A DNA stretch of 44,521 nt from a virus, in the IMG/VR virus record IMGVR_UViG_3300021356_000039, positions 1 through 44,521 of that record. One strand, written 5' to 3'. The notes beneath the pieces are model-generated. The model did no database searches, had not been told where the DNA came from, and worked only from the letters and a program-made list of their open reading frames with translations. Below, piece by piece: positions 3,091-44,383 of the stretch (position 1 is its first letter; each line of letters opens with the position of its first letter). A program made the translations under genes and the position numbers.

Positions 3091-6000
3091 TTATGATATT
3101 CCAGAATCATCCAAACGCTTCTTCAATTTATCATTCTCTCTCTTCAGTTCTTTGACTGATTCTACTAATAAAGGAACTAGTTTGTCATATTGGACAGTTA
3201 AATAATCTTCTCCAGTTTTTGAAACATCCATCTTCAAATCATCATTCCATTTGAAATCAAATGGTGCTGGAGCAACTGCTTGAGGAATAACATCTCGAAC
3301 TTCTTGAGCAATCAAACCAATATCATTCTTAAACAAAGTGGGGTTGAAACCAAGATCTTTTACCATATCCTTCCAGTCAAAAACATAACCATTTAATCTA
3401 GAAACTTTTTGTAATGGTGATTCGATATTCTTGAAGTTTTCTTTCAATCTTCTATCGGAAGAATAGGCAGTAACGTTACCTGTGAATGTTGCGTTTCCAC
3501 TACCATCAACGCGACCTATCTGTGATGCGCCACCGTCTCCAAAATAAGTACCGTTTGTTCCTCCATTCCAATTAGAATAAACGCCATAACTTCCATCAGC
3601 AGAATCAACATAAAGGTTACCATCCGTAGTAAGTATATGTGATTGAGTACTACTACCTGCGTAACTATTACCACCTATTAATAAAGTGTTGCTATTGCTG
3701 TTTGGTCCATAAGTCGTTGTATAATCAAAAGTAACTGTTGTACTAAAACCAACAGATCCAGAGAAAGTGGATTCACTGGAGCTCAATTGAAGAATTTGAG
3801 TGACATCCGCTGCGACTCCAGATGAAGCACTACCAAGTCCAAAAGTCATTAGTGCATCACCACTAGTCGAGTCAGTGTTAACTTCGATTCTTCCCGCTTT
3901 ACCATTCTGTTCTGGAGTTCCATCTTGGTGATTAAATGTCACGTTTGCATCTCCATATCCATCATTAACGGTAAGAGCAACACCACCAGACCCTCTACCA
4001 GCTACCAGATCGCCCGAAGTTGAATAATCTCCAGTTCCAGATGTTTTTGCTGATAAACTATCAAAAGTAGAAGTTGGTCCTGTGGCTCCTTGAGTACCTT
4101 GTGCGGCAAGGTCAGACGCATCAGTACCTTGAATGCCCTGAGTACCTTGAGTGCCCTGAGTACCTTGAGGTCCAGCAGAAGTGAATGCGGTTATTGATAA
4201 CGTATCTCCAGTTGCAGCACCAGAATCAAGAACTATAGAAGTTCCATTTGTAGCCGTATAGTCAGAAGGATCTAAGAAAACACCATTAAGATATACATCT
4301 AAGTTATTTTGTGTATATGCTAAAGTATTCGAATCATTATCAGATCCGGTAAAAGTTGTTTGATTTGAAGTTGCCGTGTATGTAAAGGAAGATCTGTTAA
4401 TATTAGAAAGTCCTTGAATACCCTGAATTCCCTGGATACCCTGAGTACCTGTAGTGCCCTGAATTCCCTGGATACCCTGAGTGCCTTGGGTTCCTGTTGT
4501 ACCTTGTGGACCTGCTGATTCAAACGCAACTACAGTTAAAACATCTCCAACTGAAGCACCAGAACCCAGAACTATAGAAGTTCCATTTGTAGCAGTAAAG
4601 TCAGAAGGATCTAAGTGAATACCATTAAGGAATACGTCAAGACCAGACACTGCATATGCCAGAGTATCGCCATTATCATCAGAACCACTAAAAGTTGTTT
4701 GACCTTCAGTTGCTGTATATGTGAATGAATTCCTACTGACATTAGCGCCCTGGACACCTTGAATACCTTGTCTACCTTGAATACCCTGGGTTCCGTTAGT
4801 TCCTTGAGTTCCGTTAGTTCCTTGGGTTCCATCGGTACCCTGAGTTCCTGCACCCGTAGTTCCTTGGGTTCCATCGGTTCCTTGAGTTCCATTAGCACCT
4901 TGAATACCTTGGATACCTTGGGTTCCATCAGTACCTTGAGTTCCTGTTGCACCTTGAATGCCTTGAGTTCCTTGAGTACCTTGAGTACCTTGGGGCCCCG
5001 CTGATTCAAATGCAGTTATCGTTACAATATCTCCGGCAGTTCTACCAGAACTCAGAACTACAGAAGTTCCATTTGTAGCAGTAAAGTCCTGAGGGTCTAA
5101 GTGTACGCCATTAAGAAATACATCTAAGTTATTTTGTGTATATGCTAAGGTATTTCCATTGTCATCAGAACCGCTAAAGGTTGTTTGATTAGCAGTTGCG
5201 GTATATGTAAAAGAAGTTCTGGTAAAACTAGAACCCTGGACACCTTGTACGCCTTGTGTGCCTTGCGTTCCATCAGTGCCTTGGGTTCCTGTTAAACCTT
5301 GAATACCTTGTGTGCCTTGCGTTCCATCAGTGCCTTGGGTTCCTGTTAAACCTTGAATACCTTGCGTACCTTGAGTTCCATCAGTACCTTGAGTTCCTGT
5401 TAAACCTTGAATACCTTGTGTTCCCTGAATACCTTGAGCACCCGTGTCTCCTTTAGTTCCAGTCCTTGCAAAAGTGACAATGATATCTTCTGCGTTGCTG
5501 AATGCAGTTGCTCCGGACAGATATGATACGGTTACTTTATGATAGGTATCTACTTCTGAGTTTGTTCCACTAATCGTAAAGATAGCGAAATCGTCTGCAT
5601 TAGTTCTATTGGATATTCTTACATGACCTTTGATAGTAGAAGTGCTATCATCAATCGTTCTTAAGAATGCTTGAATATCCGTTCCATTGTCGTCAGTATC
5701 GTCGATATACATCAACGTTGCCGAAGACAAATCTGCGTTGTTAAATCTTAACTTACCTTGACCAGGGTCAGCATCAGTTGTTGCTGTATCAAAAGTATAA
5801 TCAAATGTAGCGCCACCAAAGTTACCATCAACACCTTGAGTGCCTGTTACGCCTTGGGTTCCCGTTTCACCTTGAATACCTTGGGTTCCTTGGGTTCCAT
5901 CAGTACCTTGGGTTCCATCTGTTCCTTGAATACCAGTATTCCCTTGAATACCTTGAGTTCCTTGGGTTCCATCAGTACCTTGGGTTCCATCTGTTCCTTG

Positions 6001-39817: not shown

Positions 39818-40219
39818 TTATCGAGTTGATTCTAATACAAACTCTAACTGTTGTTTTGGAATATCGATTCCAACGATTCTATACACAATTAATACATCAA
39901 ATGTATTATTATCAAAGTCTGGATTGACTTCAACATCATCCAATATAACTCTTGGTTCATATTCACGGATAGAATTTTCAATTTCATCCTTAATAGTTAA
40001 GGCTGAAACGTCATCCATGTTCTCAAATAACGAATCGCTGATACGAGAACCAAAATCAGGGTTAAAAAACTTTTCACCAGGGGAAGTCAAGACGATATTA
40101 CGGACAGATCTTGAAATTGCAGATGTATTTTTAGTGGCAATCAAATCATTTGTCAAAGGATGACTCTGAAATGATCCACTTATGTCCTTAAAACCTTGAC
40201 TTACCCTCTCTAAAGGCAT
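39818..40219 (-). CDS. gp25: Baseplate wedge protein (T4 gp25-like)
   Basis: A 133-residue protein, same size as T4 gp25 (132). gp25 is the small gp25/lysozyme-like-fold wedge protein that anchors sheath initiation at the baseplate; the fold has no enzyme activity. Motifs seen are SHPLTNDL, SVRNIVLTSPGEKFFNPDFG and the family's EPR motif in REYEPRVILDDVEV. It is the first gene of the late structural block, with a late promoter immediately upstream and gp6 directly downstream. Confidence 0.94.
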   Translation of the reverse strand: MPLERVSQGFKDISGSFQSHPLTNDLIATKNTSAISRSVRNIVLTSPGEKFFNPDFGSRISDSLFENMDDVSALTIKDEIENSIREYEPRVILDDVEVNPDFDNNTFDVLIVYRIVGIDIPKQQLEFVLESTR

Positions 40220-42991: not shown

Positions 42992-43420
42992 TCAGCGGTT
43001 AGACTTAAAGCGATTCGGTGTGATTGCATTAAGTGCATTCAGCAGACCGTCAGCATAATCAGTCATACCAGTTTGTGGATAGTTTGTGTCAAGCGCCTTG
43101 CAAGATTGTGCGGCGATATCAACAGCACTGGCAGAATGACGTTCAGAGAATGTCATGAATGCTGCTACGATTGCGGGGCGATTACCTTCATGCTGATGGT
43201 AAGCTTCTGCCATAGCGTCATACTCTTCTGCAGTCCACTTAACATGACCCTTAGCATTTTTGCCCTTAAGTGTCAATGCAGATTCCATGAGTTTTTTACC
43301 CTTACGGAACAGCAGTCGATCTTCACGTTCAGGAAGAATCGTCAGTCCGAAGTACTTAACCTGCTGTTCCCAGACTGCAAAGAAGTCGAGAGCGATTTGC
43401 TGGTCTTGAGTGACAGTCAT
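42992..43420 (-). CDS. Phage protein of unknown function (142 residues)
   Basis: A soluble, mostly helical protein. Residues 1-30 (QQIALDFFAVWEQQVKYFGL) and 65-100 (WTAEEYDAMAEAYHQHEGNR, then FMTFSERHSASAV) are predicted helical; the last 20 residues are Asn/Ala-rich (LLNALNAITPNRFKS). I recognise no family. It is preceded by the best sigma70-type promoter of the window and an untranslated leader of about 75 bases carrying the 23 bp element shared with the 116-residue gene, and lacks a Shine-Dalgarno sequence. These point to early expression. Confidence 0.7.
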   Translation of the reverse strand: MTVTQDQQIALDFFAVWEQQVKYFGLTILPEREDRLLFRKGKKLMESALTLKGKNAKGHVKWTAEEYDAMAEAYHQHEGNRPAIVAAFMTFSERHSASAVDIAAQSCKALDTNYPQTGMTDYADGLLNALNAITPNRFKSNR

Positions 43421-43446: not shown

Positions 43447-43469
43447 TAGGACACTTTACAGGCTACAGT
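43447..43469 (-). repeat. Leader element, copy 1 (before the 142-residue gene)
   Basis: A 23 bp element matching 44361-44383 at 21 of 23 positions. On the minus strand its core is ACTGTAGCC, two variable bases, TAAAGTGTCCTA. It lies about 27 bases upstream of the start codon, within the mRNA leader. Confidence 0.8.
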
Positions 43470-43531: not shown

Positions 43532-43653
43532 TAATGTCACGGAGATTTATGAGCGTTTCTTATAGTGTGCTGATGTCAAGTCCCGGAGAAACTTATATCG
43601 CCCCTCTTGACATTTCTGGCGATCGTTGCTAAGCTAGTCGCCTTAGATCACAA

Positions 43654-43720
43654 CCCCTGAGCACATTTTAGAGAGTAACTTAGGAGTATCTTCAGAGATA
43701 CTTTACAGCGTATTCAGGGG
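43654..43720. repeat. Nested inverted repeats
   Basis: Outer arms CCCCTGA (43654-43660) and TCAGGGG (43714-43720) enclose a perfect 7 bp hairpin, AGTATCT-TCAG-AGATACT (43685-43702). The structure could form in DNA or in an RNA from either strand. Confidence 0.7.
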
Positions 43721-43723
43721 GTA

Positions 43724-43756
43724 TTATCCACATCTTTTTCCACAAGCTGTGGATAA
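43724..43756. promoter_or_regulatory. Cluster of three DnaA-box-like 9-mers
   Basis: TTATCCACA at 43724-43732 is the classical bacterial DnaA box; TTTTCCACA at 43736-43744 is the form reported as typical for cyanobacteria; TTATCCACA recurs in inverse orientation at 43748-43756. The first and third boxes form a 9 bp inverted repeat; the second and third form a tight 6 bp hairpin. Confidence 0.6.
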
Positions 43757-43829
43757 CAACAAAAAACACAAAGCTATTAAAAAAAGGCTTTATTAAACGT
43801 TTTTAAGCATAATCCTTATATATTCAATG

Positions 43830-43864
43830 AAAAAAGGGGTCATTTCTGTTAAAAACGCCCCTTT
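43830..43864 (-). terminator. Intrinsic terminator after the 116-residue gene
   Basis: On the minus strand AAAGGGGC, an 18-base loop, then CCCCTTTTTT: a 7 bp stem followed by T residues, about 95 bases past the stop of the 116-residue gene. Confidence 0.65.
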
Positions 43865-43959: not shown

Positions 43960-44310
43960 TCAAGCGAAAGTGAATTCTCCGTTGAATTCTTCTACGTTGA
44001 AGACCTTACCCGTGATGGAAGATTCTGCAATCATCTTTCTTACATACCATTGAAAGTTCTTTTGAAAGATACCTTCCCCAGCAATACAGAAAGCATCACA
44101 TAGTGCATTGATTCTGCTCTTAGTTGTTTTAGATTGGACACCACCATCAAAGATAGTCATGTCTGTATCTGTCACAGTAGCAATCAAATTACCATGCAAA
44201 TAAACATTGGAATTGTTTGTTTCAGAGTCGAAGATTACAGAGGTGTTAGCATTAGTCCAGTTCTTATTTGCCTGGACTGCTTCACACATTTGCTTTTCGA
44301 TCTTACGCAT
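43960..44310 (-). CDS. Small conserved marine-phage protein, function unknown (116 residues)
   Basis: A 116-residue soluble protein of a kind I recall from many marine phages without a known role. Landmarks are KNWTNANTSVIFD (residues 16-28), VYLHGNLIATV (36-46), a TIFDGG turn (52-57), KTTKSRINALCDAFCI (60-75) and FQKNFQWYVRKM (82-93). Its leader of about 75 bases carries the second copy of the 23 bp leader element and a GGGG/CCCC hairpin (44340-44353); there is no Shine-Dalgarno sequence. Expression is probably early, like its neighbour. Confidence 0.75.
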   Translation of the reverse strand: MRKIEKQMCEAVQANKNWTNANTSVIFDSETNNSNVYLHGNLIATVTDTDMTIFDGGVQSKTTKSRINALCDAFCIAGEGIFQKNFQWYVRKMIAESSITGKVFNVEEFNGEFTFA

Positions 44311-44360: not shown

Positions 44361-44383
44361 TAGGACACTTTAGGGGCTACAGT
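44361..44383 (-). repeat. Leader element, copy 2 (before the 116-residue gene)
   Basis: The 23 bp counterpart of 43447-43469. It starts at the stop codon of the partial gene and lies about 50 bases upstream of the 116-residue start. Confidence 0.8.

Follow-up and report, generated by a model that had tools for sequence, protein, structure and literature searches.

The stretch of DNA analysed here (the window) comprises the 44,521 bases of an IMG/VR virus record. Its leftward genes are T4-type genes for tail and baseplate, a phage ferredoxin gene and one specific to Kyanoviridae; the window is therefore a fragment of a T4-like cyanophage. Its homologue of baseplate wedge gene 25 shares 35% identity with T4 gp25 (E = 7e-18). 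The intergenic region that holds the DnaA boxes is 539 bp long, with the Kyano_Gp96 gene on one side and a gene of 142 amino acids on the other, and the features in and around it are the following:

39818..40219, minus strand: homologue of baseplate wedge gene 25 (phrog_261), the synteny anchor
42992..43420, minus strand: flanking gene of 142 aa, without a family match; neighbours the same in loci L004 and L028
43503..43531, minus strand: P2, a sigma-70-type consensus promoter, TTGACA-17-TATAAT (12/12 consensus match)
43605..43677, plus strand: P1 element, which reads toward the boxes (profile match, E = 2.9e-6)
43642..43723, plus strand: leader from P1 to the boxes, with degenerate strand-specific AGNNACNTTA-type repeats (by motif density)
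43724..43732, plus strand: DnaA box 1, TTATCCACA (exact match)
43736..43744, plus strand: DnaA box 2, TTTTCCACA, the cyanobacterial consensus (exact match)
43748..43756, minus strand: DnaA box 3, TTATCCACA inverted (exact match)
43757..43829, no strand: AT-rich tract, candidate DNA unwinding element (77% A+T; counterpart in relatives)
43833..43864, no strand: AAAGGGG...CCCCTTT hairpin closing the AT-rich tract (sequence and RNA fold)
43960..44310, minus strand: flanking gene Kyano_Gp96 / phrog_554 / T4-GC_637 (family match)

P2 diverges from P1 and sits upstream of the leftward gene. Just upstream of both leftward genes, the sequence GGACACTTTANRGGCTACAGT is present twice in exact form (43449-43469 and 44363-44383; 0.01 expected, allowing up to three mismatches), and is probably a common 5'-leader or early-gene element of the two.

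A sequence-only reading of this DNA had pointed out three DnaA-box-like 9-mers, and these are indeed exact and lie at 43724-43756. Beyond them, TTWTCCACA does not occur elsewhere in the 44.5 kb window, for a window-wide expectation of 1.6, and for a triplet of such tightness the expectation per window is about 6e-7. The same reading had taken TTTTCCACA for the cyanobacterial form of the box, in agreement with the published DnaA box of cyanobacteria (PMC4674748); in vitro, domain IV of Cyanothece DnaA bound paired boxes of Cyanothece oriC and did not clearly bind a single box (PMC4674748). By sequence matches, the window and many of its relatives have a cluster of host-consensus DnaA boxes, as DnaA-dependent origins of the oriC type do. 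Inspection by eye for a DnaA-trio motif adjoining the boxes gave nothing convincing. The window's own triplet found no match in an exact search of viral contigs, and the box arrangement differs among relatives.

IMG/VR contigs were gathered by way of relatives of the two flanking genes, without use of the boxes, and many had nearby box clusters, with varying spacing and orientation. Among 23 complete cyanophage records picked for diversity, 17 have 2-3 exact boxes within about 60 bp and six have no cluster (Bellamy, S-CAM9, P-SSM2, P-SSM4, S-SSM7 and S-TIM4), counts which are not independent events, since the cyanophages examined are related. In these records the clustered boxes occupy one locus per genome (two neighbouring loci in two records), and the scattered single box sites outside the clusters occur in about the number given by chance. 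A prior-free test, in which all 9-mers were ranked for tight pairing in eight complete genomes, returned TTTTCCACA as the top 9-mer, with tight pairs in 6/8 genomes (runner-up 4/8); tight pairs of TTWTCCACA were found in 7/8, and 270 of 300 permuted motifs scored zero. Conservation of the boxes in relatives, which had been proposed as a check, is thus far beyond chance.

Start-to-start spacing of direct boxes is 12, 20-22 or 42-44 bp (52 twice), and that of inverted boxes is mostly 23-25 or 31 bp. Two clusters are seen in ACG-2014d (locus L101, 768-798 and 1685-1704) and in S-RIM14 (locus L109, 1311-1342 and 1568-1592); the paired clusters are about 0.3-0.9 kb apart in the same genome, and only one of each pair adjoins a P1 match. 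Arrays of 5-8 exact DnaA boxes, spanning about 60-120 bp and without a P1 match, were also seen in three viral loci (L274 6064-6171, L277 1765-1878, L262 6127-6198). A bacterial scan for the 12-bp-phased box pair gave many phyla among the matches listed, and is thus uninformative as to hosts.

Phage copy number rises during infection, and with boxes in the host consensus form the phage copies could soak up host DnaA in a datA-like manner, leading to titration or shut-off of host replication. The complete records, however, hold only 2-3 boxes in a single place per genome plus near-chance scattered singles, neither many dispersed boxes nor a large array as datA-like capacity would need, and the constant linkage of the boxes to P1 and the AT-rich tract (see below) is left unexplained, so we consider titration very improbable.

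The general form of P1 is TTGACA, 17 nt and TA; CTWAGAYNACWA and GAGMACATTTA are located either on the -10 or behind it. In the window, TTGACA (43607-43612) is followed after 17 nt by TAAGCT (43630-43635), CTTAGATCAC at 43642 and GAGCACATTT at 43659, and the element shares 77% identity with intergenic sequence of phage Bellamy. The P1 profile has a single match in each of eight complete genomes, which coincides with the cluster, except that in Bellamy it falls on the boxless counterpart. Distinct P1 modules number 65, with at least two exact boxes in 40, one in 3 and none in 22. In all 40 boxed modules the distance from P1 downstream to the start of the first box is 67-169 bp, and this box reads away from P1, an arrangement found in none of the mononucleotide shuffles. 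The TTGACA -35 is present in most members and absent in some (Syn9, S-MS29), and the -10, weak in many of the aligned modules, matches the consensus at 3/6 positions in the window and in the modules of subtype A (defined below), so that we only infer a promoter function for P1. In a mixed viral set, exact TTGACA-17-TA promoters faced the clusters in 59 cases and faced away in 62, an uninformative result; the P1 profile was used instead.

The leaders of P1 modules carry AGNNACNTTA-type motifs at 6.8 per kb on the P1 strand versus 0.3 per kb on the opposite one. In the boxless S-CAM9 (locus L081, about 1700-1870) the P1 leader contains four copies of GAGCACTTTAC, some of them followed by ACAAGACCCT, an array that extends the conserved GAGNACATTTA leader motif. 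In S-SKS1 (locus L110, about 5800-5914), an iteron-like unit of 22 bp, GGTTTATAAGAGTATTAGAGAA, is repeated head to tail about four times between P1 and three DnaA boxes, which are spaced by exactly 21 bp.

The nested inverted repeats noticed earlier at 43574-43720 exist (ATGTCAAG/CTTGACAT, GGCGA/TCGCC and CCCCTGA/TCAGGGG), and the region folds as single-stranded DNA with a z-score of -2.3. Their reading as structured DNA did not hold in relatives, where no base pair is conserved and it is instead the P1 sequence (43605-43677) that is kept. An RNA family was considered and rejected, with no Rfam match near the gathering threshold and covariation absent. That the inverted boxes form the hairpin of a small RNA would agree with the inferred P1 transcript of the window folding better than shuffles (z = -2.9) and with a simple plus-minus box pair in 19/40 modules; against it, compensatory change occurs at no pair and the boxes are in direct order only in 13/40. 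As covariation is absent and the boxes are direct as well as inverted, the site is to be read as a DNA-protein site, and an RNA element is scarcely credible. The hairpin at 43833..43864, possibly the end of a P1 transcript, was not called by a simple terminator scan.

The AT-rich tract beside the boxes, also part of the earlier description, is borne out: only 0.4% of 73-bp windows match its 77% A+T, the window overall having 61%. No 50-bp stretch near the cluster is less stable than one within the tract (0.22% of positions in the window are as unstable), and in 5/7 boxed genomes tested, as well as in the window, the AT tract by the boxes belongs to the least stable 0.03-0.6% of the DNA; exceptional helical instability was not seen in the other two of the seven, Syn1 and S-SM1, and a stretch of equal instability is found in 1-16% of the 360-bp intervals of the other boxed genomes, which is not rare. 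In subtype A (e.g., S-RIM8) the tract separates P1 from the boxes, and in subtype B (the window, S-BM3, S-SKS1) it comes after them, thus the geometry of the module is not fixed; in the aligned modules P1 reads toward the tract. In nine subtype-A modules the boxes are invariant, compared with a mean identity of 82% in the other columns. P1, the AT tract and the boxes recur together, thus forming one module that is able to lose its boxes.

Since boxless members such as Bellamy retain P1 and the AT tract, the core might be a T4-type promoter/DUE origin whose boxes bind a phage protein or are auxiliary, without a part for host DnaA. We regard this as quite improbable, because the 9-mer agrees at every position with the DnaA box of cyanobacteria, down to the A/T choice at position 3, and because orientation and spacing vary in the manner of DnaA sites.

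The module could also serve DnaA-responsive transcription control, in which host DnaA would block or tune transcription from P1 or of the divergent P2 operon with no role in the initiation of replication. The promoter-like P1, the consensus P2 of the window, the position of the boxes inside the inferred P1 transcript and the frequent outward-facing promoter-like sites near clusters in the wider set all agree with such control. Nevertheless, the boxes are off the promoter hexamers, at 67-169 bp downstream of the P1 start, the box-bearing transcript would run away from the P2 genes, the AT tract by the boxes would be superfluous, and the position of the module is that of T4 oriF, which together make transcription control rather unlikely.

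Regarding this position, all 17 of 17 clusters lie between the SF2 helicase gene (phrog_16) and baseplate gene 25, an interval of roughly 6-29 kb, in which Bellamy, S-CAM9 and S-TIM4 have their P1 elements without boxes. In the same interval P-SSM4 has a weak P1 match (E = 0.007), and the profile found none in P-SSM2 and S-SSM7. The T4 record annotates oriF in the equivalent interval, from uvsW to gene 25; T4 UvsW and the cyanophage helicase show weak similarity in direct pairwise comparison and the gene 25 homology is clear, so the positional parallel with T4 rests mainly on gene 25. An earlier suggestion that the interval is a copied host regulatory region was dropped, as the P1 profile matched in 0/120 bacterial loci and the module is syntenic among phages. 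The proposed check of GC skew showed no inflection at the module in eight genomes, most of each having skew of a single sign; it says little, because nearly all coding in these genomes is on the same strand.

T4 oriF requires about 100 bp, consisting of a promoter and an A+T-rich DUE, and an R-loop of its transcript primes replication (PMC3016281); neither DnaA nor cyanophages are named in that review. Like oriF/ori(uvsY) (and oriG), the cyanophage module is a small promoter-like element with an AT-rich stretch in the helicase-gene 25 interval. Unlike it, the T4 origin uses a MotA middle promoter, whereas the -35 of P1 is sigma-70-like, and it is without a DnaA-box cluster (the 5-kb uvsW-25 interval has one TTWTNCACA, with 0.86 expected by chance); furthermore, the T4 primer RNA is the uvsY transcript, while P1 of cyanophages is antisense to the neighbouring genes. 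With cyanobacterial oriC the module shares the TTTTCCACA box sequence, several close boxes and an AT-rich neighbour, but it has no dnaN neighbour, only 2-3 boxes, T4-type genes around it and a linked promoter-like element. The oriR of bacteriophage P1 and the origin of pSC101 use DnaA together with a dedicated initiator protein and its iterons; they resemble the module in having few host DnaA boxes adjoining an AT-rich stretch, and differ in that the module has iteron-like repeats only in some members (S-SKS1, S-CAM9).

The boxes, their recurrence and spacing, a P1 that reads toward them with an AT tract, the single copy and the location between helicase and gene 25 are what is observed, and taking them together we think that the interval is probably a composite origin of replication in a T4-type cyanophage, similar to oriF with host-DnaA boxes added. 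A host-DnaA-dependent origin had been suggested from the sequence alone, and it is the best-supported reading, with the boxes conserved in relatives and the skew inflection absent; the DnaA binding and the origin activity themselves are what we infer. From P1, as a sigma-70-type promoter-like element, a short untranslated RNA would be transcribed across the DnaA boxes and the AT-rich tract, host DnaA would bind the 2-3 closely spaced boxes and help to open the tract, and the RNA would serve as primer for the leading strand, like the R-loop of T4 oriF; the phage replisome would take over from there. The boxes are not universally needed, because 6/23 genomes have no cluster and 22/65 P1 modules have no exact box.

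To extend this to the family, chances are about even that in a large family of T4-type cyanophages the first replication round begins at a single hybrid origin, where host DnaA on closely spaced boxes and a promoter transcript together open a T4-style DUE. Such cooperation between DnaA and a promoter transcript is a mode not described for T4 relatives, and in the open-access literature we provisionally find no report of DnaA boxes or of a mapped origin in T4-like marine cyanophages.

The module offers a precise, single-copy target. If our reading is true, these cyanophages would combine a T4-type replisome with the initiator of their host, and the position of the origin would have been kept between T4 and cyanophages despite the changed sequence. 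The start of phage replication would then be linked with host DnaA and, through it, possibly with the host cell cycle, and the findings suggest that these T4 relatives infecting ocean cyanobacteria recruit the replication starter of their host.
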